Origin: Mesorhizobium sp.
Lineage (GTDB): Bacteria; Pseudomonadota; Alphaproteobacteria; Rhizobiales; Rhizobiaceae
Length of the DNA: 50,741 nucleotides
Assembly (NCBI RefSeq): GCF_017306545.1
Contig: NZ_JAFKID010000031.1
Span: forward strand, 1-50,741
Direction of reading: 5' to 3'
Part shown: piece after piece, positions 12,742-50,377 of the stretch
Position numbering within the stretch: the first letter of the stretch is position 1
How the letters are laid out: the number at the start of each line of letters is the position of its first letter
Notes under the pieces: model-generated
Databases searched by the model: none
Told to the model about the DNA's origin: nothing
The model's input: the letters and a program-made list of their open reading frames with translations, nothing else
Position numbers and translations under genes: made by a program

Positions 12742-13012
12742 CCGCTCGCGATATCGACGTCCGGATCGCGTCGCCGGCCAAGCCCGCATCGGCAGGCAAG
12801 TCTCGCACAAGGGCTGCGAGCGATGATCGCCTGCAAACAGCACGATTGTGCGAACGGCGTCTTCGACATTTCGGCCGTTGGACAGAGCGCGCTGGTGCGA
12901 GCGCGCCATCCGAGCCGACGGGATTGCCGGGGCGGTTGCGGGCAGGATCGCCGTTTTCGGGGCACGGCTCACGTCTCTCCGCCGACGGCAGGACAGGAAA
13001 GAAGCAGTGCAG
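12742..13012. promoter_or_regulatory. Upstream region of the pseudaminic acid operon
   Basis: A 271-base stretch between smc and pseB with no convincing gene. It is the only gap of its size ahead of nine packed genes, so the operon promoter is expected here. No sigma-70 or RpoN consensus is evident by eye. GGAAAGAAG at about 12997-13005 serves as the ribosome site for pseB. No repeat of the tRNA-Gln 3-prime end was found. Confidence 0.4.
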
Positions 13013-34972: not shown

Positions 34973-35665
34973 TTATTCACGTGCGGAGGGGATGTATCTT
35001 CTGGATTCGGGACCTGCATTGAACAGCAGGTCGACTATCGAAACCTGATTTTCAAATGCGCCATGGATCTGCGGGTAGGGTTCGAGCCCGTCATATGAGA
35101 ACCATTCCACGGCTATGCCGGCCTCGTCGAACAGGCCGACGTCGAGATAGCTTTTCGCGGCGGGTCCCGACACATAGGTGGCGGCACCGGCGGCGCGGCA
35201 CAAATCCACCAGCCGTTCAGTCTTGCCGGTGGCGGATTGATAGTCCCATGACCACGTTATATTTGTTGTGATGCCTATATAGTCGCAAATCGATTTGATA
35301 AAAGAATGGTTTATCTTAGAAATATATGTTTCGTCTCTTTCATAGAGAGGCTTGAGTAAATCGAATACGGAAGAAAAATATTTCGACTTTCGATAGCTTT
35401 CCGATAATTTATTCAGGTGGTCCATCTGCCAGTTCATATTGGAGCATTCGACATCACATATGTTTTTCTGGATCCGATGCTTCTTCGGCACGGGAATCGT
35501 CAGCCATTTGGGGCCGCTGTTCGTGCGGATGATGTTGCGATTGCGCCAGTCGCCCTGGCTGAACTGCACGTCGTCATAGAATATGAACGTGTCCACGGAC
35601 GCTATGAGATCGAAGTAGCCTCGCCATGGGATATATGCCGATTGAAGTATCGCTACCTTTTTCAT
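34973..35665 (-). CDS. WbqC-like protein
   Basis: 230 residues of the WbqC family: 'AILQSAYIPWRGYFDLIASVD' at the N-terminus (in outline), 'FIFYDDVQFSQGDWRNRN', 'WLTIPV', 'YVSGPAAKSYLD' and 'GIAVEWFSY' are conserved blocks. Such proteins are frequent in O-antigen and flagellar glycan clusters, often next to aminotransferases or formyl/acyl transferases; their biochemical role is not established. ATG at 35665 is one base from the stop of the upstream membrane protein gene. The middle of the gene (35281-35400) drops to roughly one third G+C, unlike its flanks. Confidence 0.88.
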   Translation of the reverse strand: MKKVAILQSAYIPWRGYFDLIASVDTFIFYDDVQFSQGDWRNRNIIRTNSGPKWLTIPVPKKHRIQKNICDVECSNMNWQMDHLNKLSESYRKSKYFSSVFDLLKPLYERDETYISKINHSFIKSICDYIGITTNITWSWDYQSATGKTERLVDLCRAAGAATYVSGPAAKSYLDVGLFDEAGIAVEWFSYDGLEPYPQIHGAFENQVSIVDLLFNAGPESRRYIPSARE

Positions 35666-35666
35666 C

Positions 35667-37526
35667 TTATTTCTTGTCAGGTGTCCCTGTCCGGATCGCG
35701 TTGCCGCCGAAGCCGGCGCTCTGAACGGCCTCTCGGGGAGCAAAAAGGGTTCCGTCGACGCCGAGATACTCGACCGGGACGGTAACGACCGGAACGTAGT
35801 CGGCAGGGAAGTTCAATCCGAATTCGCCCGGCAGGGAGTCTGGAAAATGGGCCGTGTAACCATAGGCCTGGAAAATCCAGGCGCGTGATAGATCGTCCGG
35901 GGCGATCGTCTTCATGGCCAGCCTGAACACCTCGTCGGATCCTTGATACCCGCTCAGCAGCCAAGGTATATGGGGCGGCTTCGCTCCGATCTGATAGGCG
36001 ACCATCGGGACACGCCCGCTCAAATCGATCAGATAGGGCCGCTCCGGAAGCTTCTCCAACAGCGGACGAACGCCGGCCAATGTGTTGTAGAACGACGCCT
36101 GTTTCGCCGAATCCAGGAATTCTTCGTCAAACGGACCGACATGGGCGATCGACTTCAGTTCGCTCAGCGGTGCCGTCAGGCGGTAAGGCGCGTATTCGAT
36201 GCCTCGCGTTGTCCCGACCAGGGCTACGCCCAACAGTGAAAGGCTCGGGATGGCCAGCAGAAGCCGCTTTTCGGCTTGAAGCATCCAAAGTGTCGCCGCG
36301 ATGGCCGAAAACGCAAAACCGCCGGCGGCCGAAAGAGTGAAACCCCAAGGATTGCCTGTACCGTATACGTAGATGAACAGGCTTGCGCACATCGGCAAAA
36401 AGAACAGCCAGGCTGCGCCTTGCTGTCTGCGTGGTATGGCGAAAATTCCGATCAGTGCAAAGACAATTGCCAGGACGATCAATGCGGAGCGGGCGGGGAT
36501 GAATTCCCCGAAGGCGCCGGATTGCCATGCAAGAACCGGGATTGCGCCTGCGGCGGCGATGGACAGACAAACACGGATGAAAAGCGGGATTGCCGTTCCG
36601 ATCGGGTGCGGAATGCCGACGGCGAGCAGGATCGCAACCAACACGGCCAATGTCTGCCATTGCCCCAAAAGCGGGACGGCGGCGGTAGACGTGACGAACT
36701 CGTCGAATTGGGCTCGCGGATTGAACGGCGCGGCTGCGATGGTCATGGCAAAACGGTAGCCCCCTTGCATCGTCGTGACCACGCGCAGCGGCGTTTCGCC
36801 GATGGCCGCTAGCATCAGAAACACGACCGCACAGCCGATAGCTGCCGCCAAGGCCAGCAGCATAAATCTGCGAAGGTTCAGCACCCGCCATGTCGTTGCA
36901 AGGTAAAGCCCCAATACGACGGGACCGAGCACTGCGGCGCTGGTCGCCTTGGAAAGAAAGACTGTCATCATCGCCAGGCCGACGACCGCGGCCCATGCCA
37001 GTTCTGACGTCGAGACGCCCTGTTCGCTCGCCAGCGAGGCGGCTCGAAGTTTGAAGAAACCCGCCCAGACAAGCGCGATGAATCCCAGGTCCACCAAATT
37101 GTAGGAAGGATCGGGAATCCAGTCCCGGTAGTAGACCATGGCTCCGGAAAGCGAGAATGGGACGGCAAGCAGCAGTCCGCCTGGATCGGACAGGATGTGT
37201 TTTTGCCCGGCCAGGATGAGCAGCACGAAGCACGCCAGCAGAAACACGACGCCCAAATAGCGGTTGGCGAGAACGCCGTCGAAGGGTGACAGCGCCGCCC
37301 ATATCCACCCGGCAAGCGTCGACTGCGCCGCGATGTCCTGGTGCATGGAATAGCTGATGATGTGGTATGCGCTGTCGGAAACATCGACACCCACATCCAG
37401 TCGCGACGTGACGTACCAAAGAATCCAGAGGAAGAGCGCCAGCGCGACCGCTGGCACGGCATATGCCAACCCGGCCATGACGGGCCGGGAGCGCCCGTTC
37501 TGCAAAGAAGCGGCCGAAGAACTCAT
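35667..37526 (-). CDS. Large polytopic membrane protein, GT-C-like
   Basis: 619 residues with about 12 hydrophobic segments in the first 470 residues and a soluble C-terminal domain of about 150 residues. The first loop has paired acids in 'VGVDVSDSAYHI' (about 48-60), the place where GT-C glycosyltransferases keep catalytic aspartates. Such enzymes use polyprenyl-phosphate sugars on the periplasmic face. No exact family was recognised. ATG at 37526 overlaps the rfbB stop; it belongs to the rfbA-wecE-rfbB operon, so the dTDP-sugar made there may be its ultimate substrate. Confidence 0.8.
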   Translation of the reverse strand: MSSSAASLQNGRSRPVMAGLAYAVPAVALALFLWILWYVTSRLDVGVDVSDSAYHIISYSMHQDIAAQSTLAGWIWAALSPFDGVLANRYLGVVFLLACFVLLILAGQKHILSDPGGLLLAVPFSLSGAMVYYRDWIPDPSYNLVDLGFIALVWAGFFKLRAASLASEQGVSTSELAWAAVVGLAMMTVFLSKATSAAVLGPVVLGLYLATTWRVLNLRRFMLLALAAAIGCAVVFLMLAAIGETPLRVVTTMQGGYRFAMTIAAAPFNPRAQFDEFVTSTAAVPLLGQWQTLAVLVAILLAVGIPHPIGTAIPLFIRVCLSIAAAGAIPVLAWQSGAFGEFIPARSALIVLAIVFALIGIFAIPRRQQGAAWLFFLPMCASLFIYVYGTGNPWGFTLSAAGGFAFSAIAATLWMLQAEKRLLLAIPSLSLLGVALVGTTRGIEYAPYRLTAPLSELKSIAHVGPFDEEFLDSAKQASFYNTLAGVRPLLEKLPERPYLIDLSGRVPMVAYQIGAKPPHIPWLLSGYQGSDEVFRLAMKTIAPDDLSRAWIFQAYGYTAHFPDSLPGEFGLNFPADYVPVVTVPVEYLGVDGTLFAPREAVQSAGFGGNAIRTGTPDKK

Positions 37527-38533
37527 GTCGGCTCGTTCCACCACCACTCGTTGCCGAGATACCAGTCCACGGTTTCCCGCAATCCGGCATCGAAGCTTCG
37601 CGACGGCGTCCAGTTGAACTCGGACTGGATCTTGGTCGCGTCGATCGCATAGCGCAGGTCGTGCCCCAGCCTGTCCGTCACGAAGCTGATCTGTTCGGCG
37701 TAGCTTGTCCCCTCCGGCCGCGGCCGGCTCTCGTCCAGCAGGCGGCAGATCGAGCGGACCACGTCCAGGTTGCGCCATTCATTGTTGCCGCCGACATTGT
37801 AGCGCTCGCCGGGGCGCCCCCTTGCCAGCAGCAGGGCCAGCGCGTCGACATGGTCCTCGACATGCAGCCAGTCGCGGACATTGCTGCCGGTTCCGTATAC
37901 CGGCAGGGGTTTGCCGGCCAGCGCCTTGACCAGCATATGCGGGATCAGCTTCTCGGGGTTCTGGAACGCACCGTAGTTGTTGGAGCAGTTGGATATGATG
38001 ACGGGAAGCCCGTAGGTCCTGAACCAGCTCGACACCATGAAATCGCTGGCCGCCTTCGAGGCCGAATAGGGCGACGACGGGCGGTAGGCCGTTGCTTCGG
38101 TGAAGTATCCGCCGTCCAGCGGCAGGTCGCCGTAGACCTCGTCCGTCGAGACGTGGTGGAACCGAAACGAAGGGTCGCAATCGATCGCCCGCCAGTAGTC
38201 GAGCGCCACTTCCAGCAGGCCGACCGTGCCAACCACATTCGTCTGGATGAAGGCGGAGGGGTCGGCGATGGATCGATCGACGTGGCTTTCGGCGGCGAGA
38301 TGCAAAATGGCATCAGGCCTGAAGCCGAAAACGACTTCCCGGATTCGCTGCTTGTCGCAGATGTCCGTCTGCTCGAATGCGTAGTTCGGCCGGTCCTTGA
38401 TCGAATCCAGGCTTCTGATGTTTGCGGCGTAGGTAAGCTTGTCGATGTTCAGCACCTCGTGCCCTTCGGCCACGAAGCGGCGGCAGGCGGCGGAACCGAT
38501 GAAACCGGCGCCGCCGGTGATGACAAGCCGCAT
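37523..38533 (-). CDS. rfbB: dTDP-glucose 4,6-dehydratase
   Basis: 336-residue extended SDR. 'VITGGAGFIGSA' at the N-terminus binds NAD; 'LAAESHVDRSI', 'STDEVYGD' (catalytic T/D/E) and 'YSASKAASD' (catalytic YxxxK) are intact, as is 'NCSNNYG' and 'WLHVEDH'. It turns dTDP-glucose into dTDP-4-keto-6-deoxyglucose, the substrate of the WecE-like aminotransferase encoded just upstream. RmlC and RmlD are absent, so the operon is not for rhamnose. Seventeen bases follow the previous gene. Confidence 0.96.
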   Translation of the reverse strand: MRLVITGGAGFIGSAACRRFVAEGHEVLNIDKLTYAANIRSLDSIKDRPNYAFEQTDICDKQRIREVVFGFRPDAILHLAAESHVDRSIADPSAFIQTNVVGTVGLLEVALDYWRAIDCDPSFRFHHVSTDEVYGDLPLDGGYFTEATAYRPSSPYSASKAASDFMVSSWFRTYGLPVIISNCSNNYGAFQNPEKLIPHMLVKALAGKPLPVYGTGSNVRDWLHVEDHVDALALLLARGRPGERYNVGGNNEWRNLDVVRSICRLLDESRPRPEGTSYAEQISFVTDRLGHDLRYAIDATKIQSEFNWTPSRSFDAGLRETVDWYLGNEWWWNEPT

Positions 38534-38550: not shown

Positions 38551-39699
38551 TCAATCGAAAATCTCCGGCAGGGTGCTCATGACGTCGGCGCAGACACGCG
38601 CCACTGTCGCTTCGCCCATGCCGTAGAACAGCGGAAGCCGCACCAGGCGGGCCGCAGCGTCTTCCGTGACGGGGCAGCCGCCGGGCGCTCTGCCGAAGCG
38701 GCGGCCCGCAGGGGCGGAATGGAGCGGGACATAATGGAATCCGCAATGGCTTCCGCGCGCCTTCATAGCCGCGATGAAAGCCGGGCGCCTTTCGGCATCG
38801 GGGAGCAGGAAATGGAAAATGTGGCCGTTGAGCGGAACGTCCCGATCCATCGGGGCGGGAAGCGTGATTCCGTATCGGTCGACGGCCGGCTCCAGGGCCT
38901 GGCGATAACCGTGCCATGACCGCAGCCTGTCGGCGGTGATCCCGTCGGTCGCCTTCAGTTGCGGAAACAGATAGGCGGCCACGATTTCCGAGGGCAGGTA
39001 GGACGACCCCAGATCGACCCATGTGTATTTGTCGACCTGGCCTTCCAGGAAAGCCTGGCGGTTGGTGCCCTTCTCGCGCAGGATCGCGGCGCGCGCGACG
39101 AATTGCGGATCGTTGATGACGAGGGCGCCGCCTTCGCCGGACACGATGTTCTTCGTCTCGTGGAAGCTGATGGCGGCAAGCGCCGAATGGGTTCCGGCCG
39201 GGCGGCCCTTGTAGCTGGAGCCGAGCGATTGCGCGGCATCCTCGACGACGGCAATCCCGTGCCGCGCAGCGATGGCGTTGACGCGGTCCATGTCCGGAAT
39301 GCGCCCGGCATAGTGAACGACGAAGATCGCCTTTGTCCTGGGCGTCACCAGCCGCTCGATCTCGTCCACGTCGATATTCATGGTGGTCGGGTCGACATCC
39401 GCGAAGACGGGGACCGCGCCCCGCAGCACCACGGCATTCGCCGTCGACGAGAAGGTGAACGACGGCATGATCACCTCGTCGCCGGCGCCGAGGTCCAGCA
39501 GCAGCGCCGCCATTTCCAGCGCCCCGGTGCAGGAATGCGTCAGAAAGGCCCTGGCGCAGCCGAGACGCTGTTCGAGCCATTGCCTGCACAGGTCCGTGTA
39601 GTGGCCGTCGCCGGACAGCCGGCGGCGCGCGATCGCGTCGCCGATGGCGTCGAGTTCCTCGCCGATCACGGGAGGGATGCTGAAGGCGACCTTATCCAT
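38551..39699 (-). CDS. wecE: dTDP-4-amino-4,6-dideoxygalactose transaminase (WecE-like)
   Basis: 382-residue DegT aminotransferase. 'FSIPPVIGEELDAI' at the N-terminus, 'THSCTGALEMAALLLDL', 'VVHYAGRIPDMD', 'VEDAAQSLGSSYKG' and PLP lysine K183 in 'SFHETKNIVSGEGG' follow enterobacterial WecE/RffA almost block by block. It aminates dTDP-4-keto-6-deoxyglucose to dTDP-4-amino-4,6-dideoxygalactose (Fuc4N). The matching acetyltransferase WecD is missing here. ATG at 39699 lies inside the end of rfbA (8-base overlap); the 29 residues encoded further upstream are not family-like. Confidence 0.93.
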   Translation of the reverse strand: MDKVAFSIPPVIGEELDAIGDAIARRRLSGDGHYTDLCRQWLEQRLGCARAFLTHSCTGALEMAALLLDLGAGDEVIMPSFTFSSTANAVVLRGAVPVFADVDPTTMNIDVDEIERLVTPRTKAIFVVHYAGRIPDMDRVNAIAARHGIAVVEDAAQSLGSSYKGRPAGTHSALAAISFHETKNIVSGEGGALVINDPQFVARAAILREKGTNRQAFLEGQVDKYTWVDLGSSYLPSEIVAAYLFPQLKATDGITADRLRSWHGYRQALEPAVDRYGITLPAPMDRDVPLNGHIFHFLLPDAERRPAFIAAMKARGSHCGFHYVPLHSAPAGRRFGRAPGGCPVTEDAAARLVRLPLFYGMGEATVARVCADVMSTLPEIFD

Positions 39700-40594
39700 G
39701 GCCTCTTTCCTGCGCCACGATGTCGGCGAGCGCCTTTCCATAGGAGGATTGACGCTGCCTCTGGGCGAGATCGGAGAGTTGGTCAAGGGTGATCAGCCCA
39801 CGGCGAAACGCCAGCTCTTCCGGTGAGGACACGAGCAGTCCCTGCCGATCCTGCAACGTCTTCACGAATTCGCCGGCCTGATGGAGGCTTTCGTGGGTCC
39901 CCGCATCGAGCCACGCGAAACCGCGGTGCAGCGTTTCCACGCTCAACTTGCCCGCGTCGAGGTAGCGCTGAAGGACGGAAACAATTTCGAGTTCGCCGCG
40001 CGCGGAGGCAACCACGTCGTCCGCATAGTCGCAGGCGTTCTCGTCCAGGAAATAGAGTCCGGTCACGGCCCACGGAGAGCGCGGCTGCTCGGGTTTTTCC
40101 TCGATCGACAAGGCGCGGGCCTCGCCGTCGATCTCGACGACGCCGAATTGGCGCGGGTCGCGTACCAGGCTGGCGAAGATCGTCGCGCCGTCATTGGCCG
40201 CGGCGCGATCGATAAGTGTCTGGAGGCCATGTCCGAAGAAGATGTTGTCGCCCAGGATGAGAACGCTTGGCGCGCCGTCCAGAAAATCCCGGCCTATGCG
40301 ATAAGCATCGGCGAGGCCCCTTGGATGATCCTGGACCGCATAGGAAAAGCGGATGCCCCATTGCGAGCCGTCGCCGAGCAGGCGGCGGAATGCCTCCACA
40401 TCGTGCGCTGTCGTGATGACGAGGATTTCCCGCACGCCCGCCATGATCAGCGTGGAGATCGGGTAATAGATGAGCGGTTTGTCGAAGATGGGCAGCAGTT
40501 GCTTCGAGGCGGCCATTGTCAAAGGAAAGAGCCGGCTGCCAGTACCTCCCGCCAGAACGATGCCTTTTCGTGCGGTTGATTTTTGACCTGTCAT
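39692..40594 (-). CDS. rfbA: Glucose-1-phosphate thymidylyltransferase
   Basis: 300-residue RmlA-type nucleotidyltransferase joining dTTP and glucose-1-phosphate. The signature 'GIVLAGGTGSRLFPLT' is at 11-26, followed by 'SKQLLPIFDKPLIYYPIS', 'LGDNIFFGHGL' and 'EEKPEQPRS'. First gene of the minus-strand dTDP-amino-sugar operon; the ATG at 40594 is preceded by a divergent gap shared with the plus-strand membrane protein series. Confidence 0.96.
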   Translation of the reverse strand: MTGQKSTARKGIVLAGGTGSRLFPLTMAASKQLLPIFDKPLIYYPISTLIMAGVREILVITTAHDVEAFRRLLGDGSQWGIRFSYAVQDHPRGLADAYRIGRDFLDGAPSVLILGDNIFFGHGLQTLIDRAAANDGATIFASLVRDPRQFGVVEIDGEARALSIEEKPEQPRSPWAVTGLYFLDENACDYADDVVASARGELEIVSVLQRYLDAGKLSVETLHRGFAWLDAGTHESLHQAGEFVKTLQDRQGLLVSSPEELAFRRGLITLDQLSDLAQRQRQSSYGKALADIVAQERGHG

Positions 40595-40842: not shown

Positions 40843-42033
40843 GTGGCAACACGGAAACTGTCCGTCGGGCTCAGCCTGGCGATTTTCGTCATCTTTGCGC
40901 TCTATTTTCGAGCCATTATTCTCGATCCAAATATCGGCTCGGATCTGAACGCCCACATCGGCTTCGCCAAGAGCGCTTATGACGGGGAGGGCGTGTGGCC
41001 CCGTCACATTCTTTATTTTGCGTTGGTCGCTCTGACTTCGTTCTGGTCGAGTTCCTTGAGCGTCTGGGAAACCAGCGGATGGCTATGGTTGTCGCTGCTG
41101 GTCGTCGCCAAATTCGCGGCAACCCTGTGGTTCGGGCGCCTTTGGCTGGGCGGCTCCGATCAAGCAGTCGCGCAGGCCGAAAGCGGCGGGCGCGACGGAA
41201 ACCTGGCCTTGGTCGCGATCGCGCTTTGCATGACGGTCGTCTTCTGCTTCCCGCCCCCAGTGGCATTCCTGCAAGGCCTTTGGTATTCTTTTTCGTTCCC
41301 GCCGAACGTCTGGCACAATTCCACGCACATCGCGGTGATGCCGTTTGCGATCGTCGTCTTCGGCCTGTCCGTGCGGCAGCTCGAACAGCCCGACAATGTC
41401 GGCCGTGCGATCGCGGTCACTGTCATGGCTATCGTCTCTGCTCTGGCCAAACCGTCGTTCCTCATGGCTTGGCTGCCGGTCTACGGGCTCTGCACCCTCA
41501 TTCTTTGGTGGAAGGATCGCTCGTTCCGGAAATTCCTAATCGCGATCTTGCCGGTGGCCCTCAGTGTCGCCGTTCTCGCTGTTCAGTATTACCTGATATA
41601 CGGCAAGAATATAAACAATGCTTCGGTGAAATTTGGATATATGGACGCGTGGCTCAGTCGGTCTGGCCGTTTTGAAATTGATTTTTACATCTCCATCCTA
41701 ATGTCTTCTCTTTTCCCGATCGTTTTTTATCTTTTTTTCCCGGCAAGGGTGAAGAATCTGTCACATATATTGGCGATCGGCATGGTCGCGATTTCCTATT
41801 TTTACGCTGCGGCTTTCAGCGAGACGGGTGAGACGCAGGCCGGCAATTTCATGTGGCCGATCATCGGCGCTAATTTCATCGCCTACATGCTGTGTATTTT
41901 CGATCTCCATGCAATCTGTCGCAGGCAGAAGGGCGGGCTTCGTGCCGGTGTGCCGGCGGCGGTATTCGCATTGTGCTCCATTTGGGGCGTTGCCTATATG
42001 GTCCGCTACCTTCTGATCGGTGGGTACGGGTGA
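40843..42033 (+). CDS. Polytopic membrane protein, possible GT-C glycosyltransferase
   Basis: 396 residues with about ten hydrophobic segments. The first periplasmic loop has 'DPNIGSDLNAHIGFAKSAY', acidic residues followed by H and a helix, a layout seen in GT-C enzymes. No closer family was recognised. The start is uncertain: GTG at 40843 with a GGGGG tract just upstream is chosen; an in-frame ATG at 40771 would add 24 residues of poor composition. Its 3-prime end lies one base from the next start. Confidence 0.7.
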   Translation: MATRKLSVGLSLAIFVIFALYFRAIILDPNIGSDLNAHIGFAKSAYDGEGVWPRHILYFALVALTSFWSSSLSVWETSGWLWLSLLVVAKFAATLWFGRLWLGGSDQAVAQAESGGRDGNLALVAIALCMTVVFCFPPPVAFLQGLWYSFSFPPNVWHNSTHIAVMPFAIVVFGLSVRQLEQPDNVGRAIAVTVMAIVSALAKPSFLMAWLPVYGLCTLILWWKDRSFRKFLIAILPVALSVAVLAVQYYLIYGKNINNASVKFGYMDAWLSRSGRFEIDFYISILMSSLFPIVFYLFFPARVKNLSHILAIGMVAISYFYAAAFSETGETQAGNFMWPIIGANFIAYMLCIFDLHAICRRQKGGLRAGVPAAVFALCSIWGVAYMVRYLLIGGYG

Positions 42034-42034
42034 A

Positions 42035-43516
42035 ATGGAGTTTCCTGCTTCTCTCATCAGGACGGAGAGGTCGGGCGGGGCGCGCCTGCTTGCCCTGGGG
42101 GCGACGGCGGCGATCCTGCTGATCGTCCATCTCTACAATTGCGTAACCGCAATCCACCAAGGCTATCTTCCCACGAGTTCCGACGAAATAGACTATGTAA
42201 AATCCGTCGAATATTTCGTTCTCAACGGCCATCCTCATGCTTTTTCGACATTCGACGAAATCTATTCGCCGAACGGAAATTTTTCTTTCCATGGTCCTGT
42301 CTATACGGTCGTGTTCGGCCTTCCTGGATTGATGTTCGATTTCGATTTAAAATATATTATTTTATATATTAATATATTAATATCAATTGTATCAATTATA
42401 TTTATATTAAAAATCTTAAAAGACATGGAAATAGGGATAATCGTATCATCGATACTATTGTCATCCCCGATTTTTTATATGTATTCGACATCGTCAATGA
42501 TGGAGATATTGCAGATATTTATTTCAATTTTGATCGCAGGTATATTTTATGTTTTTATAAGATGCCCTGTCGTTGGAATGGTGATGCCTCTCTTTTTTGG
42601 GTTCACGAGGCAATCGAATTTTCTCTATTCGGTCGGCGTATTCGGCAGGAGAATGTCTGCCTCCCGGCTTGTCCTGATGTTCGCGTTGTGGACCTTCTCG
42701 TTTCTTCTATTGCTGGCGGACATAAATTTTCTTCATGCTTCCTTTCCCGGAGGCAAACTGGCGAATGTGGCGCAGATGCTCGCGCAACTGGACCTGTTCG
42801 GGGCGGGGCGCGAATTGGCTGCCAACGCCGTTCGCGGAGCCCAGCGATTTTTCACCTCGCCCGAGGACGGCGGTTTCTACCTGGTTGCGAGATATGTCTT
42901 TGTGGCGGCGACGGTCTATTGTCTGGCGGTTGGTTTTGTTCGCGTTCAGCCTCGCCTCCTAGCGGCGGGGATGGTGGGCTTGGCGTTTTTTGCTGCCCTC
43001 CTTACTCTGTACGATGTGGGCGACTGGCGCGATCTGCGAAGCCTGGCTGGCGTCACGGTGTTCCTGATGGTCGTCTTGGGCCAGCACCGGCGTAAGGCGT
43101 TTCTTTTGCTTGTTCTGCTGGCTCAACTCGCGACCTATCCGGCACTGGTGAGCTACGGCTCCGAATTCAACAATCTACGCGTCATTCCGTTCAGAAATCA
43201 GGTGCAGGCGGCCGATGCCGAAGTGGCGGCCTACAAAGCGCTGAGCGCGCTTCCGGCTACCCGTCCCGGCGAGGATTTTATCCTCCTGTCCGTGGATGCA
43301 GGCCTTTTTCCGACCGATATGGGTGTTGCATATCTGAGCCTGCCGGTCCGCAGCGATAGCGGCCTGGCGATGCGCTATACATTCCAGCGATACGGCTTGG
43401 CTGGAGCCAGCCAGGCAGACTATCGGCTATCCGCGCAACCGTGCCCCGACCGACCTGCGGTTTTGAGCACGTCATTCTTCCAAGTATGTCGTCTTGTCGT
43501 CCAGCGAGATCCGTGA
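42035..43516 (+). CDS. Polytopic membrane protein, GT-C-like, with AT-rich core
   Basis: 493 residues, about ten hydrophobic segments, then a soluble C-terminal part. 'PTSSDEIDYVKSVEYF' at about 46-61 contains the acidic pair and helix typical of the first loop of GT-C glycosyltransferases (ArnT/dolichyl-phosphate-mannose-protein type). The reading frame runs without break through a stretch of extreme base composition: 42361-42420 has only 4 G or C in 60 bases, encoding an isoleucine-rich helix region. ATG at 42035 is preferred over GTG at 42020. It is followed 18 bases later by the acyltransferase gene. Confidence 0.8.
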   Translation: MEFPASLIRTERSGGARLLALGATAAILLIVHLYNCVTAIHQGYLPTSSDEIDYVKSVEYFVLNGHPHAFSTFDEIYSPNGNFSFHGPVYTVVFGLPGLMFDFDLKYIILYINILISIVSIIFILKILKDMEIGIIVSSILLSSPIFYMYSTSSMMEILQIFISILIAGIFYVFIRCPVVGMVMPLFFGFTRQSNFLYSVGVFGRRMSASRLVLMFALWTFSFLLLLADINFLHASFPGGKLANVAQMLAQLDLFGAGRELAANAVRGAQRFFTSPEDGGFYLVARYVFVAATVYCLAVGFVRVQPRLLAAGMVGLAFFAALLTLYDVGDWRDLRSLAGVTVFLMVVLGQHRRKAFLLLVLLAQLATYPALVSYGSEFNNLRVIPFRNQVQAADAEVAAYKALSALPATRPGEDFILLSVDAGLFPTDMGVAYLSLPVRSDSGLAMRYTFQRYGLAGASQADYRLSAQPCPDRPAVLSTSFFQVCRLVVQRDP

Positions 43517-43534
43517 GGTGTGGAGCTGTGGATC

Positions 43535-44647
43535 ATGAAACCTGAGACTGTTCGCCTGGACAGAGAAGGTAGTCTGACCCGCTACTATTTTCTCGACGGT
43601 CTTCGCGGATGGGCTGCGCTGATTGTAATGATCCTTCACGTCTTCTTCGGCAGCCTGCCGTTCGCCGACTTCGGTTTCCTGCGTATGGACATTTGGTGGT
43701 CTTTCAACGGGAACTACATGGTCGGTCTGTTTTTTGTGGTATCCGGATTCGCGCTTTCGATAAGTTACATTAGGAATGGGGATCGTTCTCTTTTGGTGAG
43801 AATGGCCGCGGGTCGGTATTTCCGGCTTTTGATCCCAATCATGGCGACTTGCATTTTGGTGAGCCTATTCCTCAATGCGGGAATGTTCCCGGCGCCGGCC
43901 GATCGCACGCCAACCTATGCCGGACACTACGGATTCGCGCCAACGATCAGCCATCTTGTCTGGTTCTCTTTTATTGGTGTGTTTTTCGACTTCAGTTTCG
44001 CCGAAACCTACGCTGGCCCGTTGTGGACGATGTCCTATGAGCTTTTGGCTTCCTATGCCTTGCTGTTTCTTCTCTTCGTGTCACCCGGCAGGCGGTGGCG
44101 CGTGATCGCCGGCGTTGCGATCTCTGGTTATTTTCTCGTGACCGGTTCGTATTATTCCTTGTTTTTCATTGGCGCTCTTGCAGCGGAAGCTTATGTCGTT
44201 GTCAATGATCGCGGACTGAACAATGGGCGCGTTGTCTGGATGCTCGGGGCTTCGCTTCTCGTCGGCGGGTATGTTTTCACCCGCTTTGCTCCGGCAAGCA
44301 CGATAGTACTCCTCGTCAGTGTGTCGCTCTGGTTCTGCGGAACCATGCTCAATCCTGCCATGCGGGCATTTATGGAGACGCCTTTCAGCCGGTTTCTGGG
44401 TGTCATTTCCTTTCCGCTGTATCTGATACATGAAGCCATGATCGTCGCCGTCGGCATGCCTGTCTATGTCGGTGCGGACAGCGCTTGGGGGCGGGCTCTG
44501 GCCGGCATTCTCGCGGCGGCCGCATCGTTGGCGCTCGCTTATGCAGGCACCCCCGTCAACAAACTGGCTATAGTCGTTTCACGCCGGGTTGGTAATGCCG
44601 CCGCTCTTCTGCTCGGACAGGGGGGGCGTCGCCGCGAACCTGCCTGA
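43535..44647 (+). CDS. Acyltransferase 3 family membrane protein
   Basis: 370-residue integral membrane O-acyltransferase (OafA/YrhL/NodX type) with ten predicted membrane segments. The N-terminal signature 'YYFLDGLRGWAALIVMILH' has the conserved arginine and histidine; 'VGLFFVVSGFALS' and 'ISFPLYLIHEAMI' near the C-terminus are also typical. It moves acetyl or longer acyl groups from the cytoplasm to sugars of surface polysaccharides. The start is the ATG at 43535; an upstream GTG at 43520 is less likely. A GGAG is 10 bases upstream. Confidence 0.92.
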   Translation: MKPETVRLDREGSLTRYYFLDGLRGWAALIVMILHVFFGSLPFADFGFLRMDIWWSFNGNYMVGLFFVVSGFALSISYIRNGDRSLLVRMAAGRYFRLLIPIMATCILVSLFLNAGMFPAPADRTPTYAGHYGFAPTISHLVWFSFIGVFFDFSFAETYAGPLWTMSYELLASYALLFLLFVSPGRRWRVIAGVAISGYFLVTGSYYSLFFIGALAAEAYVVVNDRGLNNGRVVWMLGASLLVGGYVFTRFAPASTIVLLVSVSLWFCGTMLNPAMRAFMETPFSRFLGVISFPLYLIHEAMIVAVGMPVYVGADSAWGRALAGILAAAASLALAYAGTPVNKLAIVVSRRVGNAAALLLGQGGRRREPA

Positions 44648-44834: not shown

Positions 44835-45893
44835 GTGTTGGCTGACGGGCAGGTCGGGCGGACGACTGAATCCGGTGAATATGGCGAGACGGGCGTCGTC
44901 GATTCCTTGTTGCGGGAGACGATCGGACCGAAGTACTCGGTCGTCGTTCCGGTTTACAACGACGGTGCCCTCGCGCCGGCTTTCTGCGAAGAGATAGCCA
45001 AGACGTTCCGCGGCTATCTCGGCGTGGAGGACCTGGTTGGCCACGTCGAACTGATCTTCGTCAACGACGGAAGCCGCAACGATTCCCTCGGACACCTGAA
45101 GGCGATGACCGCGCGCTATCCCTTCGTCCGGGTTATCGATCTCTCCCGCAATTTCGGACAGCACATCGCGATCGCCTGTGGCCTGTCCGATGCTCACGGC
45201 GACGTCGTGCTGCGCATGAACATCGACATGCAGGATCACCCCGACCAGATTCCGCTGCTTCTCGATGCGATGCACACGGAGCACCTGGATCTGGTGGTCG
45301 GACAATATGCCGTTCGCGAGAGTCCTTGGGCCAATCGCCTCACAGCCTGGCTTTATTTCTACCTGTTCGAGTTTCTCACCGGGTTTTCGTCGCCCCAGAA
45401 CACGTCTCCGCTGCGGGCCATGAGCCGTCGTTTCGTCGACGCCTACAACCGGCTGACGGAACGCTCGCGCTTCCCGCAGGGGCTCGATCAATGGCTCGGC
45501 TTCGATCATAAATACGTCCCCATCGAACACAGCCCGCGCAGCGTCGGCAAGTCTTCGTACAATTTCTGGTCCCGGTTGCGGTTGGGGATCGAGGGGATAC
45601 TCTATTTCTCCAATCGCCCCCTCACGCTGATCGCGATCGCCGGCTTCGCCCTCAGCCTGATCGGGCTGGCCCTGGGCCTCTACGTCGTCCTGGCTCGACT
45701 CTTCTGGGTTGCGCTGCTTCCCGGTTACGCATCGATCGTGTCGGTCGGCCTGATCGCTTTCGGCATCCAGCTTGGCTGCATGGGGGTGGTCGGCCTTTAT
45801 GTCGCGCGAATTTTCGCGGAAACGCAAAACCGCCCGCTCTACATCGTCAAGGCGTGTTATACGCACGCCGGCAAGGAACAAGGTAAGGAATGA
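44835..45893 (+). CDS. Polyprenyl-phosphate glycosyltransferase (GtrB/ArnC-like)
   Basis: 352-residue GT2 enzyme. 'YSVVVPVYNDG' opens the GT-A fold, VNDGS is at 76-80, the DxD-like 'NIDMQD' at 129-134, and 'LGIEGILYFSNRPL' precedes two membrane helices (about 260-290 and 297-326), the layout of GtrB, ArnC and DPM1. These move a sugar from a nucleotide donor to undecaprenyl phosphate on the cytoplasmic side. The GTG at 44835 is the only useful start. It is 4 bases from the next gene and heads an operon with TylF-like, FAD and small transporter genes, which suggests it loads an unusual sugar. Confidence 0.93.
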   Translation: MLADGQVGRTTESGEYGETGVVDSLLRETIGPKYSVVVPVYNDGALAPAFCEEIAKTFRGYLGVEDLVGHVELIFVNDGSRNDSLGHLKAMTARYPFVRVIDLSRNFGQHIAIACGLSDAHGDVVLRMNIDMQDHPDQIPLLLDAMHTEHLDLVVGQYAVRESPWANRLTAWLYFYLFEFLTGFSSPQNTSPLRAMSRRFVDAYNRLTERSRFPQGLDQWLGFDHKYVPIEHSPRSVGKSSYNFWSRLRLGIEGILYFSNRPLTLIAIAGFALSLIGLALGLYVVLARLFWVALLPGYASIVSVGLIAFGIQLGCMGVVGLYVARIFAETQNRPLYIVKACYTHAGKEQGKE

Positions 45894-45897
45894 AAAG

Positions 45898-46674
45898 TTG
45901 AGCAAGCAGCACGAATCGGCAGTCGTCAGTTATTCTTCATCGGACAGTCTGAACGCGCGGAACGAGATATTCGATCTCCTGCGTTCCTATCCCGCCACCG
46001 AAGAGGAAACCGAGCGGTCTCTCGGACTGTTCTTGCGCGGATCGCTGCTGGCGCGGATCCTCGCGGTGCGCGACTTGTACGCCCGGATCGTCGATCTTCC
46101 CGGCGTCATCATGGACATCGGAACCTGGCGCGGCCAGACCGCTGTGCTTTGCGAAAATTTCCGCGCCATCTACGAGCCGCTTCACCTCAACCGCCGCATC
46201 GTCTGCTTCGATACGTTCGAGGGCTATCAGGGTTTTTCGGACAAGGACAAGGCGACCGAGCTTCACCAGGATGGAACCTACGGCGTCGGCGGCGAGAGCT
46301 ATTCGGCCTATCTGGCGAAACTGCTCGAACTGCATGAGAAGTCGAATGCGATGGGGCACAATTTCGGCAAGCATACGGTCGTCAAGGGCGACTGCCGCGA
46401 GACGATCCCTCAGTATTTCAAGGACAACCGCAACGAGTTCGTCTCGCTCGCTTTCTTCGACGTGAATTCCTATGAGCCTTCGCTGAAGGCATTCGAGGAC
46501 GTTTGGCCCCGCATGGTGCCGGGCGGCATCGCCGCGTTCTGGCAGTTGACGCGCCGTACCATTCCGGCAGAGGCGATGGTGTATTCCGACAACATCCTGT
46601 CGAAAGTGCCGCACACGCTGCGGCGGTGCGAGACGTATCCGGGACTGTGCTATCTGGTGAAGCCCGCCTCGTAG
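45898..46674 (+). CDS. TylF/MycF-like methyltransferase with altered active site
   Basis: 258 residues. 'VIMDIGTWRGQTA' at 70-82 is the S-adenosylmethionine motif and 'VCFDTFEGYQGFS' follows as in macrocin O-methyltransferases. Later blocks diverge: where the family reads 'DxDLYEPT' this has 'DVNSYEPS' (188-195), and the 'GGxxxxDDY' block is 'GGIAAFWQLT' (209-218). The aspartates that bind the metal in MycF therefore appear lost. It may use a different mechanism, or be a non-catalytic partner. The start is a TTG at 45898 with AAGGAATG upstream, four bases after the GtrB-like gene; no ATG fits. Confidence 0.82.
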   Translation: MSKQHESAVVSYSSSDSLNARNEIFDLLRSYPATEEETERSLGLFLRGSLLARILAVRDLYARIVDLPGVIMDIGTWRGQTAVLCENFRAIYEPLHLNRRIVCFDTFEGYQGFSDKDKATELHQDGTYGVGGESYSAYLAKLLELHEKSNAMGHNFGKHTVVKGDCRETIPQYFKDNRNEFVSLAFFDVNSYEPSLKAFEDVWPRMVPGGIAAFWQLTRRTIPAEAMVYSDNILSKVPHTLRRCETYPGLCYLVKPAS

Positions 46675-46707
46675 CCCGCAGCAAAGCATTTTCTGGGATC
46701 AGCTCAC

Positions 46708-48159
46708 ATGGATCGGATCATTCTCGGCAACGGCGTCGTCGGCCTTTCGTCGGCATTCGGCTTGCTTCGCCGCATGCCGGCGAACGACAGGATCGTCGTC
46801 GTGGGGAAGGCGTCGCGCCCCGGTTCGGCGACCCTGGCGGCCGCAGCGATGCTCAATTCGTTCGCGGAAATCGAGGCCGGCGGGCTGGAGCACGAGATCG
46901 ACCTGTTCCGCTTCGAACTGAGCCATCTCGCCACGCGCATGTGGCCGGAATTCGAGCTCTCCCTGATTGCGGCGGCGGGTTCGCGTCTTCCGCATGCATG
47001 TTCGAAGTGCAGCGGCTGCGCCGGCGGCGGCTGCTTCAGCAGCGGCACCTATGTGGTCAACAACACGGCGACCGACGATCTCGACGACTTGAATTTCGAC
47101 GCCATTCTGAAGGCGCTCGACGACTTCAACGAGCAGCACGCGCTGATAGCGCCCGGCGACATACCCGGCTACAAGCCGCAGCAGCGTTATCGCGCGACCC
47201 GCGCGCTGCTGATCCACAACGAAGGCTGGTTCAACCCGCGCATCATGGTCGAAAAGATGGAGGCCGCGCTGGTCAATTCCGGCCGGGTCGACTTCGTCGA
47301 TGCGTCGGTCGACAGGCTGGTGCATGAGAACGGCATGATCCGCGGAGCGCTGCTCGACAACGGCACGCTGTTGGAGGGCGACCAGTTCCTCCTGGCGACG
47401 GGCGCCACGGCGACCGATGTCGTCGAGCGCAGCGAGCTCGACCTCGGTATGCAGCGCGTGTTCTACGGTATCGGCACGTCGCTCGAAATCCGCAGCGCCG
47501 ACGCACCGCTGACCAATGTCATCCGCACGCCGAACCGCGGCCTTGCCTGCGGGCTCTATACGGCTCCCTATTTCCAGACGCCCGAACTGCCCAACGATCA
47601 CGTCCTCGTCGGCGCCAGCAATTTCGTTGCGCCGACGATCCACTTTCATGGCAGGCTCACCAGCGTCGAGACGTTGATGAGCGGGGCGATCCGCCAGATC
47701 AATTCCGACTTCTATCGCGCCGACCTGATCCGCGTGAACGTCGGCGCGCGGCCGACGAGCCAGGACACTTATCCGATGCTCGGGCCGACCCAGGTCGCCA
47801 ACCTCTTCGTCGCGACCGGAACCAAAAGGGACGGCTTTCACATGGCGCCGCTGATCTCCGACGTCATGTCGGCCATGATGTGCGGCGAAGCCGTGGACGA
47901 GCGCTTGGCCTGGTTTCGCCCCGATCGCAAGGTGATCCGCATCATGAGCCGGGAAGAGGCGGTGAAGAAGGCAGTCCGCCATCAGATCAGCGCTGCTTAT
48001 CAGCATGGGTTCGAGCCGGCGACGACGCGCATGCCGGAGCAGCTGGAACAACAACTGCGTTCCGTTGTGGAGAAGCTGCACGATCAGGTGGGCGCCGAGG
48101 ACTGGGGCATTCCGCCGGAAATGCTCGACATGTATCGGTACGGCCATGCCAAAGTCTGA
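46708..48159 (+). CDS. FAD-dependent oxidoreductase (DAO family) with Cys-cluster insertion
   Basis: 483 residues, longer than glycine oxidase (about 370). The dinucleotide motif G7-N-G9-V-V-G12 starts the protein; 'GSATLAAAAMLNSFAE' near 40 is the helix typical of ThiO/DadA. A four-cysteine insertion C98-x2-C101-x2-C104-x4-C109 sits where relatives have none that I know. 'FVATGTKRDGFHMAPLI' is the flavin-contacting C-terminal block. It would oxidise an amine or hydroxyl of an unknown substrate. A final helical tail of about 70 residues follows. It is co-directional with the TylF-like gene (33 bases) and the transporter (56 bases). Confidence 0.87.
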   Translation: MDRIILGNGVVGLSSAFGLLRRMPANDRIVVVGKASRPGSATLAAAAMLNSFAEIEAGGLEHEIDLFRFELSHLATRMWPEFELSLIAAAGSRLPHACSKCSGCAGGGCFSSGTYVVNNTATDDLDDLNFDAILKALDDFNEQHALIAPGDIPGYKPQQRYRATRALLIHNEGWFNPRIMVEKMEAALVNSGRVDFVDASVDRLVHENGMIRGALLDNGTLLEGDQFLLATGATATDVVERSELDLGMQRVFYGIGTSLEIRSADAPLTNVIRTPNRGLACGLYTAPYFQTPELPNDHVLVGASNFVAPTIHFHGRLTSVETLMSGAIRQINSDFYRADLIRVNVGARPTSQDTYPMLGPTQVANLFVATGTKRDGFHMAPLISDVMSAMMCGEAVDERLAWFRPDRKVIRIMSREEAVKKAVRHQISAAYQHGFEPATTRMPEQLEQQLRSVVEKLHDQVGAEDWGIPPEMLDMYRYGHAKV

Positions 48160-48215
48160 GCAGCGTCGAAGCGCATGGGCGCACCCATTAGCCCTGTTCG
48201 CATAAGGGCCGAGCG

Positions 48216-48581
48216 ATGAACGTGTTTTTCAGTCTTCTTCCGACGGTCGTGTTGACGGTCTACGGTCAGGTCGTCACGAAATGGCGGGTCGGCCACATCG
48301 CCGAACGCGCCGCAGGGGCACCGATGCTCGACCGCCTGCTTGTCTACGTTCTCGATCCTTACATCATCTCGGCCTATGTCCTTACCTTCGGCGCCTCACT
48401 GGCCTGGATGATCGTCGTCGAGAAATTTCCGCTGTCGCTGGTCTATCCGCTCTATATCGGCATGACGATCGTGATCGTGACCGCCCTTGGCGTCGTGCTG
48501 TTTCGCGAACCCCTTTCGATGACCAGGCTCATCGCCATTGCGCTGATCCTGTCAGGGATCGTGATAGGCGCCAGGGCGTAG
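48216..48581 (+). CDS. Small DMT/SMR-type membrane protein (possible lipid-linked sugar flippase)
   Basis: 121 residues with four hydrophobic helices, the size and layout of EmrE, ArnE/ArnF and GtrA-like proteins. 'WMIVVEKFPLSLVYPLYIGMTIVIVTALGVVLFREPLS' contains, in outline, the SMR-type glutamate/proline pattern and 'FREPLS' turn. In ArnE/ArnF and GtrA the same architecture moves undecaprenyl-phosphate sugars across the inner membrane. Its place at the end of the GtrB-like operon favours that over drug export. Confidence 0.8.
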   Translation: MNVFFSLLPTVVLTVYGQVVTKWRVGHIAERAAGAPMLDRLLVYVLDPYIISAYVLTFGASLAWMIVVEKFPLSLVYPLYIGMTIVIVTALGVVLFREPLSMTRLIAIALILSGIVIGARA

Positions 48582-49108: not shown

Positions 49109-50377
49109 ATGCATAAAGAGCTCAGGGCGTTGTTCACAGCGCTTCCCGGCAACAGAATCGGCCGCAACAATGCGATCTCGGTCTTTCTGATGGGCGCGCT
49201 GCCTGCTGTGGGAGGCAGTATTATTTCCGCCATGCTCTATGTGTTCTTCATTTGGGGAGTCATCTCGCTCGTCCTTCGGCGCTTCGAGTTCAGGATGACG
49301 CGCAGCGACCGCATGCTGGCCTGGACTTTCACTTCCTTTGTCGGATTCGAGGTGGTTACTGCCCTGTTTGGCGGAAATTTACCAAACGCACCCACCGCAT
49401 TGGTGTGGCTTTTCGCTTTCCTGGCGCCGTGGATCCTGATTCCCCGCCTGCGGGCAAGTTCGGAATTGGACTATCTGGGCCTCTTTGTTCTCGGCGCTGC
49501 GGTAGGGGCCGTTGCGGCAGGCCTGGTGGCCTTCGTGCAACTGATCGCGACCGATATTCGTCCCAAGGCTGGTGCGGGCAATGCCGCCGTATTCGCGATA
49601 ATGTCGCTTTGCCTGATGGGACTTGGCGGGCTCAACATCACGGCATCGGCCCGATGGCGCAGGCTCCTGGCCATGGCCGCGGTCGTTTTCGGCGGATTGG
49701 CGGTCGTCTTGTCACAGACACGGGGCGTGCTGGCCGTGTGCGTGCCTTTGTTGGGGTTGTTATGGTTGTTTTCGCCAGATGCCTGGCGCAAGGCCCTGGC
49801 CCGCTTCACCACGCTGGTTATACTGGCAGCGGCGGGAATTGCGGCCTATTTTGCCCATCATGCGCTTGATGGGCGATGGGAGTATACGCTCAGTGAGCTT
49901 CGGCACATTTTCAATGGCGGTACGTCGACAAGTATCGGCGAAAGGCTTCGGCTCTGGAACGCAGCCGTCAAGGCGATCCAGGAGTCGCCGATTCTGGGGT
50001 ATGGAATCCAGAATAGAATGGATGCTCTCGTCCCGACGCTGAAATTGGACGGGCTGCCGATCCTCCAATATACCCACGCGCACAACGGATTCCTGTCTTT
50101 TGCGTTAGACGGTGGCGTTTTCGTCCTGGTCGCGGTTATTGCCGTCCTCTGCGTGCCGGTTGTCCTAGCGCGACGCGCGTCTCAGGATGCGCACTACCGC
50201 CTCCGCTTGTTCATGGCGCTGACCGTGACGGGAACGTATGCATTATGCGGTTTGACGCAGATCATGTTCAAACACGACATTATGGACAGTTTCTTCGTCT
50301 TCTTTTCTATACTGGTGGCTGCATCGATACCCGAGCAGGAGTCAACTCCAGCAGTCGTGACATCGAGTTCTTCTTGA
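49109..50377 (+). CDS. O-antigen ligase / polymerase family protein (WaaL/Wzy-like)
   Basis: 422 residues with about 11 hydrophobic segments and one larger periplasmic loop (about 250-320) holding 'GERLRLWNAAVKAI', 'PILGYGIQN' and 'YTHAHNGFLSFALDGG', the Wzy_C signature with its histidine. Such proteins join completed O-antigen chains to lipid A-core or polymerise repeat units; sequence alone does not separate the two. ATG at 49109 lacks a strong ribosome site. It stands after a gene-poor gap, so it has its own promoter. Confidence 0.9.
   Translation: MHKELRALFTALPGNRIGRNNAISVFLMGALPAVGGSIISAMLYVFFIWGVISLVLRRFEFRMTRSDRMLAWTFTSFVGFEVVTALFGGNLPNAPTALVWLFAFLAPWILIPRLRASSELDYLGLFVLGAAVGAVAAGLVAFVQLIATDIRPKAGAGNAAVFAIMSLCLMGLGGLNITASARWRRLLAMAAVVFGGLAVVLSQTRGVLAVCVPLLGLLWLFSPDAWRKALARFTTLVILAAAGIAAYFAHHALDGRWEYTLSELRHIFNGGTSTSIGERLRLWNAAVKAIQESPILGYGIQNRMDALVPTLKLDGLPILQYTHAHNGFLSFALDGGVFVLVAVIAVLCVPVVLARRASQDAHYRLRLFMALTVTGTYALCGLTQIMFKHDIMDSFFVFFSILVAASIPEQESTPAVVTSSSS

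Follow-up and report, generated by a model that had tools for sequence, protein, structure and literature searches.

We propose that this Mesorhizobium locus builds and mounts a decorated 4-amino-4,6-dideoxyhexose, a scheme to which we give a probability of about 0.55. In our best reading, it carries a portable cassette for the O-methylation and N-imidoylation of a nucleotide amino sugar. The FAD enzyme is a relative of one that puts amidine groups on aminoglycoside-type antibiotics; its presence, with a methyltransferase, among the genes for a rare amino sugar of surface glycans and flagella suggests a kind of bacterial sugar decoration that is so far undescribed. The following genes of the window, that is the whole stretch of 50,741 nucleotides analysed, are concerned:

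34973..35665, minus strand: WbqC family protein, candidate amino-acid–amino-sugar ligase (start inferred from homologues)
35667..37478, minus strand: possible glycosyltransferase, a multi-pass membrane protein encoded between wbqC and rmlB (about 9 hydrophobic segments)
37523..38533, minus strand: RmlB, dTDP-glucose 4,6-dehydratase (TIGR01181, 457 bits, cut-off 365; start inferred)
38551..39786, minus strand: WecE-type dTDP-4-amino-4,6-dideoxyhexose transaminase (NF008687, 509 bits, cut-off 375)
39692..40594, minus strand: RmlA, glucose-1-phosphate thymidylyltransferase (TIGR01207, 412 bits, cut-off 360.65)
40843..42033, plus strand: multi-pass membrane protein, possible GT-C (about 9 hydrophobic segments)
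42020..43516, plus strand: multi-pass membrane protein, possible GT-C (about 8 hydrophobic segments)
43520..44647, plus strand: membrane acyltransferase (Acyl_transf_3, Pfam 4.5e-22)
44835..45893, plus strand: GT2, polyprenyl-phosphate sugar synthase, GtrB/ArnC/PgfS-like (Pfam Glycos_transf_2, 7.9e-21)
45898..46674, plus strand: SAM-dependent sugar O-methyltransferase, CalS11-like (start TTG at 45898, from homologues)
46708..48159, plus strand: FAD enzyme of a sister subfamily of Orf1, an N-formimidoyl/iminoacetyl synthase (Pfam DAO, 2.2e-26)
48216..48581, plus strand: SMR protein, ArnE/ArnF-like flippase candidate (Pfam Multi_Drug_Res, 4.9e-7)
49109..50377, plus strand: Wzy/WaaL-type O-antigen polymerase or ligase (Wzy_C, 2e-21)

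The four core ORFs, from the GT2 to the SMR gene, all appear in the ORF list on the plus strand where the preliminary description had placed them. Its picture of a GtrB-like synthase and an SMR flippase-like protein flanking a redox enzyme and a sugar-type methyltransferase is borne out, as is the unusual content of the locus. The genes are separated by 4, 33 and 56 bp, the homologue-based TTG start of the methyltransferase lying 4 bp past the GT2 stop. The nearest NCBIfam models were PgfS (3.9e-49) and ArnC (2.5e-38; 131.9 bits against 529) for the GT2, and ArnF (3e-7; 30.9 against 99) and ArnE (28.7 against 92) for the SMR protein, all far under their equivalog cut-offs. A promoter scan returned 3 promoter-like sites against 2.5 expected by chance.

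The preliminary description missed the kinship of the FAD enzyme to the N-formimidoyl synthase Orf1. The two proteins are about 30% identical and share a predicted fold over their whole length, including a C-terminal helical bundle: the FAD model aligned up to residue 483 with Orf1 and only to about residues 395-415 with the other oxidases listed. In the part of PMC10156733 drawn on here, this extra bundle of Orf1 is described as having no equivalent in other GR2 enzymes. In the window enzyme the fold is of the GR2 FAD type and the Arg pair that binds glycine, R342/R368, is present, and M57, R342 and R368, which lie around glycine, are conserved in all 45 subfamily members. Likewise, Cys281, which carries the N-O-S adduct in Orf1, is present in the window enzyme, in 44 of the 45 members (it is missing in L034) and in all 36 other relatives. 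Retention of the C-terminal domain and of Cys281 is our ground for not taking the enzyme, in the main reading, as a generic glycine or D-amino-acid oxidase.

Around these fixed points, the subfamily departs from Orf1 at several positions. First, E426 is Gln in all 45 members and remains Glu in all 36 other relatives, while H284 has become Tyr and A278 Gly throughout the subfamily. Second, Y294 is replaced by Leu, Val or Ile in 44 members and retained in one, and F316 is retained in none, with Ser, Ala, Thr or Gly in 37. Third, G55 has changed to Ala in 35 members and S310 to Arg in 41, and E312 is retained in 7 (from Pseudomonas loci) and in 1 of the 36 other relatives. As a guess, the S310R change might make up for the loss of E426.

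In part of the published work on Orf1, its E426Q mutant loses the product and retains glycine oxidation. The Gln fixed at this position in all 45 members could thus mean that the FAD enzyme merely oxidises, by dehydrogenating an amine or aminoacyl arm of the sugar or by producing glyoxylate and peroxide, its second active site being dead. However, a plain oxidase would need neither the C-terminal acceptor domain nor the NOS cysteine kept in 44 of 45 members, and we consider plain oxidation unlikely. The replacements also bear on the choice of the amino acid. H284, Y294, A278, F279 and F316 line the glycine site, tunnel and second site of Orf1; all have been replaced, in several cases by something smaller, which could leave room for a larger intermediate. 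The donor might then be another amino acid, such as alanine, which would yield an acetimidoyl substituent. Nonulosonic acids and FucN of bacteria are already known to carry acetamidino groups. Yet M57, R342 and R368 around glycine are unchanged in 45 of 45 members, and Ala at position 55 (35 of 45) should tighten the glycine pocket, and we hold an alanine-type donor to be quite unlikely.

In Pfam, the methyltransferase matched Methyltransf_24 (1.1e-7) and TylF (1.7e-5; 24.6 bits, cut-off 23). Its best PDB match was the TDP-rhamnose 3'-O-methyltransferase CalS11 (6.7e-38), over the catalytic domain (residues 15-229). A TylF-type macrolide aglycone was rejected on the same PDB comparison, in which the mycinamicin III methyltransferase reached 3.1e-5 against 6.7e-38 for the TDP-sugar enzyme. 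CalS11 acts in calicheamicin biosynthesis. Fms14 and KasN are described in the literature drawn on here as relatives of Orf1. With Orf1, Fms14, KasN and CalS11 all being antibiotic enzymes, the window might be part of a natural-product cluster and no glycan locus at all. Its neighbouring genes (Wzy_C, GT2, SMR, Acyl_transf_3 and O-antigen sugar genes) and the location of homologues in flagellin islands speak against this, and we give an antibiotic cluster hardly any credence.

We then compared the surroundings of FAD-gene homologues. A methyltransferase, a WecE-type aminotransferase (counted at at least 40% identity) and a WbqC protein each accompany the FAD gene in 31 of 44 related loci, and the same three partners in 0 of 36 loci of other relatives. 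At the cut-offs used each is missing from 13 of the 44 (12 for the methyltransferase with looser coverage), in some of these loci because the contig ends there. In 31 of the 32 loci with both genes, the methyltransferase lies immediately 5' of the FAD gene. RmlA (at least 40%) occurs in 5 of the 44 loci and RmlB in 2, and therefore the dTDP sugar must mostly come from elsewhere. At 1e-25 we recovered the FAD gene only from the window's own genome in draws of 385 genomes from the class and 398 from the phylum, and 36 other genomes of the genus gave only partial matches (E at least 2.5e-7). In a draw of 398 genomes, two besides the window's own encode a methyltransferase 37-40% identical. Against plasmids, the whole operon had no match at the DNA level and the FAD protein matched 13 distant records.

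The preliminary description had taken the four genes as one Gtr-type system acting on a lipid-linked sugar. Besides the short gaps of 4, 33 and 56 bp, the order GT2-methyltransferase-FAD-SMR found in the window recurs exactly in 4 of the 44 loci (L018, L019, L020 and L025), so the arrangement is not due to chance; L031 and L037 also have the SMR gene, on contigs cut upstream. However, across all 44 loci a GT2 homologue is found in 6 at 45% identity or more and in 15 at 25% or more, and SMR in 6. Among the 32 loci with both FAD and methyltransferase genes, some on cut contigs, a close GtrB (at least 45%) occurs in 6, SMR in 6 and both in 4, leaving 26 without the close GtrB and 28 without the close pair; any GtrB-like match at E 1e-5 raises the first figure to 13. 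When only the 25 loci with at least 6 kb on both sides are counted, a close GtrB and SMR are each present in 4. On co-occurrence we reject the Gtr operon as a conserved unit; a FAD and methyltransferase pair that mostly occurs apart from GtrB and SMR is the outcome that the preliminary description had itself named as refuting its model. Moreover, flagellar genes adjoin 16 of the 44 loci, the Pfam check of that neighbourhood covering L028, L055 and L060, and we give a dedicated Gtr-type system little chance. Pseudomonas soli is a carrier of the flagellar form and Rhizobium chutanense of the GtrB/SMR form. Flagellar glycosylation is cytoplasmic; therefore the chemistry most likely takes place while the sugar is still nucleotide-bound, ahead of any transfer to a lipid carrier and of any export.

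Further upstream lie the three proteins called GT-C-like in the preliminary description. They are present, the first two with about 9 hydrophobic segments each and the third with about 8, but their GT-C identity is unproven: those at 35667, 40843 and 42020 had no family match in Pfam or NCBIfam at 0.001. The ORF list starts the third one at 42020 and not at 42035. A GtrA-family match was absent among the 10 window proteins scanned against both databases. The acyltransferase gene next to them has a counterpart in L018, about 1.6 kb 3' of the FAD gene. Also overlooked were the nearby dTDP-amino-sugar genes and wbqC. WecE (scanned over 38551-39726 of the listed ORF) passed a second profile as well, TIGR02379, with 466 bits (cut-off 434.85). 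Because the window has RmlA and RmlB besides the WecE type, the substrate is probably a dTDP-4-amino-4,6-dideoxyhexose, most likely dTDP-Fuc4N judging from profile scores that exceed the curated cut-offs.

Of 200 genomes sampled from the phylum, 55 encode a WbqC protein, and WbqC distances weakly track those of the FAD protein (r 0.24, 66 of 2000). E. coli O121-type loci make N-acetylglycyl Qui4N; at the DNA level, the gene had no match in E. coli genomes. A comparison of WbqC with PDB sequences yielded no more than one unrelated chain (E 0.81), a profile search gave nothing, and Foldseek alone found no significant match to the WbqC model (nothing under E 0.017). In a second look, with the ranking limited to Foldseek's pre-selected structures, the model resembled BshC, the bacillithiol synthase and presumed Cys-GlcN-malate ligase, which makes WbqC a candidate ligase of this kind, although it has less than half the length of BshC and is 11% identical. 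According to the part of a 2015 review drawn on here (PMC4360819), the BshC reaction itself had not been shown in vitro. Judged by titles and abstracts, none of the WbqC papers listed dealt with the function of the family.

From the observed gene identities, conservation, co-occurrence and predicted folds, we infer every step, donor and product of the following pathway. RmlA, RmlB and WecE would make the dTDP-4-amino-4,6-dideoxyhexose, most likely dTDP-Fuc4N, and the CalS11-like enzyme, by homology, would O-methylate it. WbqC probably acts before this, attaching an amino acid at the C4 amine, with glycine as a guess; the aminoacyl arm so formed would resemble the one on which Orf1 acts. The FAD enzyme would oxidise free glycine, keep the oxidised product bound to Cys281 by an N-O-S bridge, like Orf1, and pass it to the sugar amine as an amidine, either N-formimidoyl (+27.011 Da) or N-iminoacetyl (+71.001 Da, as in kasugamycin). 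We think the latter likelier since the residues driving decarboxylation in Orf1 are gone. In the window, the GtrB-like GT2 would then move the finished sugar to undecaprenyl phosphate, the SMR protein would flip it and a membrane glycosyltransferase would add it to a surface glycan; in other bacteria, the cassette would supply flagellin glycosyltransferases directly. Several observations speak against this pathway: the fixed Gln at position 426 and the changes at H284 and Y294, the member without Cys281, the loci that lack one of the partner genes, and the weak correlation between WbqC and FAD distances. More tentatively, and at somewhat less than even odds, a BshC-type WbqC ligase and the NOS-bridge FAD subfamily may, in several phyla, place N-iminoacetyl or N-formimidoyl groups on O-methylated dTDP-4-amino-4,6-dideoxyhexoses, on an aminoacyl arm or the bare amine, and so bring kasugamycin/dactimicin chemistry to amidine-bearing O-antigens and flagella.

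If this is true, bacteria also make surface and flagellar glycans with a glycine-derived amidine chemistry that the surveyed literature reports from antibiotic biosynthesis alone, and this would matter for how phages, plants and immune systems recognise them. By title, none of the 20 listed among 22 matches on formimidoyl and polysaccharide concerned an amidine-type surface glycan, the matches listed for O-antigens were general O-antigen work with no formimidoyl, and the literature on both amidines and flagellin gave nothing useful. The FAD subfamily and WbqC, both without function in the searched literature, would gain testable ones, and a mass shift of 27.011 or 71.001 Da is easy to look for.

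Compared with known systems, the window shares with GtrA/GtrB/GtrC and ArnC/ArnE/ArnF a GT2 synthase that ends in membrane segments, together with a small flippase-like protein of the SMR type with four segments. It differs from GtrABC in that no GtrA was seen and the flippase candidate is an ArnE/F-like SMR protein, from ArnC/E/F in that its proteins score far under the cut-offs, and from both in its probable dTDP-amino-sugar donor and in the pair of modifying enzymes encoded between its synthase and flippase candidate. With Orf1 of the BD-12 cluster, the FAD enzyme has in common the full-length predicted fold, the C-terminal bundle, the NOS cysteine and the glycine-binding Arg pair, whereas in its subfamily E426Q and H284Y are fixed, the changes of Y294 to L/V/I and of F316 to S/A/T are almost fixed, and the genes sit in surface-glycan and flagellin loci instead of an antibiotic cluster. 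Finally, the Pseudomonas syringae viosamine island (vioA, vioM, vioB, vioR, vioS, vioT), as far as described in the part of PMC3927599 drawn on here, likewise uses an aminotransferase-made dTDP-4-amino-4,6-dideoxyhexose, O-methylated and completed as a nucleotide sugar, which a glycosyltransferase of about 1,170-1,200 residues transfers to flagellin. There, the transaminase is VioA and the amine receives 3-hydroxybutyryl via vioS/vioR/acp/vioB, whereas the window has a WecE-type transaminase and, in place of those four genes, WbqC and the FAD enzyme.

The preliminary description had placed a GtrB-type gene, a TylF-like gene, an FAD gene and an SMR gene in one operon, and we indeed found a single + strand run with intergenic gaps of 4, 33 and 56 bp, whose four products, all with Pfam matches, are the following:

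44835..45893, +, GT2 protein (GtrB-like)
45898..46674, +, SAM methyltransferase (CalS11-like)
46708..48159, +, FAD enzyme, of a sister subfamily to Orf1 (the N-formimidoyl/iminoacetyl synthase of the BD-12 cluster)
48216..48581, +, SMR protein

The run lies where G+C is lower, between positions of about 30 and 50 kb in the window (0.52-0.65, versus 0.62-0.74 before it). This stretch also encodes RmlA, RmlB, a WecE-type transaminase, a CapD/PglF-like dehydratase and a second DegT aminotransferase, as well as WbqC, an Acyl_transf_3 protein, a Wzy_C protein and three membrane proteins that are multi-pass and match no family. Since RmlA, RmlB and WecE exceed curated profile cut-offs, the sugar genes very likely make a dTDP-4-amino-4,6-dideoxyhexose, which would probably be dTDP-Fuc4N. 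About 13 kb before this rmlA/wecE island, a second glycan locus (12893-18474) holds a pseudaminic-acid set, perhaps for flagellin, with PseB, PseC, PseF, PseG and PseI over profile cut-offs; the C-terminal part of PseG resembles PseH weakly, short of the cut-off.

One scan of GTDB species genomes with the family alignment matched at least 594 stretches, at least 249 of them relatives, and we analysed the best 80, a set that may lack scarcer or more divergent forms. We split these, on identity and gene neighbourhood, into a glycan group (the best 44, L018-L061, plus the window) and a comparison group (the other 36, L062-L097). A quick tree of 82 rows concurs: a branch with an SH-aLRT of 99 separates the comparison group and Orf1 from the glycan group, of which L052 is the member drawn nearest to them. 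Draws of 385 genomes of the class and 398 of the phylum gave a match to the FAD gene at 1e-25 in the window's genome and in no other, and a search of 36 further genomes of the genus gave no full-length orthologue. The listed glycan-group members are labelled Pseudomonadota, Bacteroidota, Myxococcota and Elusimicrobiota, many being metagenome-assembled genomes whose taxon labels may be wrong. This patchy spread over four phyla suggests horizontal transfer.

By tblastn of the window proteins (half coverage required), we found the methyltransferase (≥40%), WbqC (≥35%) and WecE (≥40%) each in 31 of the 44 listed glycan-group loci and in none of the 36 comparison loci. GtrB (6/44 at 45%, 15/44 at 25%), SMR (6/44 at ≥40%), RmlA (5/44) and RmlB (2/44, both at 40%) and Acyl_transf_3 (1/44 at 25%) were likewise at 0/36 in the comparison loci, and the three multi-pass membrane proteins were at 0/44 and 0/36. 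Fisher values for these co-occurrences are overstated because some loci are near-copies (seven Pseudomonas, L018/L019 and L021/L022). When the count was limited to listed loci flanked by 6 kb or more on each side, the 25 of the glycan group had the methyltransferase in 19, WbqC in 21, WecE in 20, all three in 18, and close GtrB and SMR in 4 each; none of these five was found in the 26 comparison loci.

With looser coverage, the methyltransferase was present in 32 of the 44 listed loci and absent from 12, and in 31 of the 32 (all except L027) it lay directly upstream of the FAD gene on the same strand, with 3-53 bp between match ends. We then correlated protein distances over listed glycan-group loci in which both proteins were near enough to full length, retaining one of the seven Pseudomonas (6 rows dropped). 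FAD-methyltransferase distances gave r = 0.73 (n = 24, 0/2000), FAD-WecE 0.41 (n = 26, 2/2000), FAD-WbqC 0.24 (n = 26, 66/2000) and methyltransferase-WbqC 0.24 (n = 23, 93/2000). Judged by these distances, the FAD gene and the methyltransferase move together, and WbqC is the looser partner. When 398 genomes were drawn from the phylum, two besides the window's had a 37-40% identical methyltransferase (1e-40), whereas the FAD gene occurred in the window's alone in a same-sized draw; thus, such methyltransferases can occur without it.

The listed loci also vary. A second small methyltransferase of about 210 residues (cluster c5) occurs in 15 of the 44, directly before the CalS11-like one in 11 (L021, L022, L041, L044, L045, L048, L055, L058-L061). 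A branch of the FAD subfamily without methyltransferase or WbqC neighbours (L033, L036, L038, L049, L054; H419 is Ser and F279 is Gly) has, within contig reach, an NAD-dependent epimerase/dehydratase, CTP_transf_like, HAD and another methyltransferase, and likely acts on a different nucleotide sugar. Two metagenome-assembled genomes carry two members of the subfamily each (L039/L044, L040/L043), of which one has methyltransferase/WbqC neighbours and the other does not. An asparagine-synthase-like protein (c49) lies near the cassette in L037 and L047 (family match checked in L037).

We compared active-site residues in 45 glycan-group proteins (44 listed plus the window) and 36 comparison proteins, in Orf1 numbering. 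First, M57, R342 and R368 are kept in all proteins of both groups, and C281 in 44/45 and 36/36. Second, position 284 is Tyr in 45/45 versus His in 36/36, 426 is Gln in 45/45 versus Glu in 36/36, 278 is Gly in 45/45 versus 7/36, and 316 is Phe in 0/45 versus 32/36; 310 is Arg in 41/45 glycan-group proteins. Among the Orf1 mutants, E426Q retains glycine oxidation and gives no product, and with F316A and E312A the product changes from formimidoyl towards iminoacetyl. Members of the subfamily are thus more than further copies of Orf1: their second site is changed and fixed. We read this as a changed acceptor, with a product that is probably iminoacetyl. The main rival is that the second site is dead, as the productless E426Q mutant would have it, and what most calls for caution on the inferred function is that Gln is fixed in place of E426. 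Separately, a Cys-rich insert (residues 98-109, 46999-47034), scored as CxxC...C within residues 81-130, occurs in the window protein, in 20 of the 44 listed relatives and in none of the 36 comparison relatives; it is a possible metal site. Plasmid-borne Orf1 relatives (L016, L017, L014) occur on Pseudomonas syringae-group plasmids and on an Agrobacterium plasmid; on the former another Orf1 relative adjoins a 2-oxoglutarate/iron oxygenase, and on the latter the gene set is unlike it.

The loci suggest two ways of delivering the sugar. The window shares the exact order GtrB-methyltransferase-FAD-SMR with L018, L019, L020 and L025 of the 44 listed loci; L031 and L037 have SMR on contigs cut upstream. 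By ORF clusters, flagellin, FliD or FliS adjoins the cassette in 16 of the 44 (L028 and 15 that carry this label in the tree), and a Pfam check confirmed flagellin in L028 and L060 and FliD with FliS in L055. Since flagellin glycosylation draws on cytoplasmic nucleotide sugars, the most likely substrate of the shared enzymes is the nucleotide sugar, ahead of GtrB and the SMR protein. The observation of the four genes holds, and the proposed glycan-modification system stands in half: a sugar probably does undergo redox and methyl modification, but a Gtr system is not what carries it out. The modifier, its function inferred, is probably a nucleotide-sugar cassette with an Orf1-type FAD enzyme as its hallmark. 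In 13 listed glycan-group loci there are also large proteins (cluster c8) with about 1,200 residues, two of these proteins matching glycosyltransferase families; VioT, from the viosamine island of P. syringae, is 1,173 residues long (PMC3927599).
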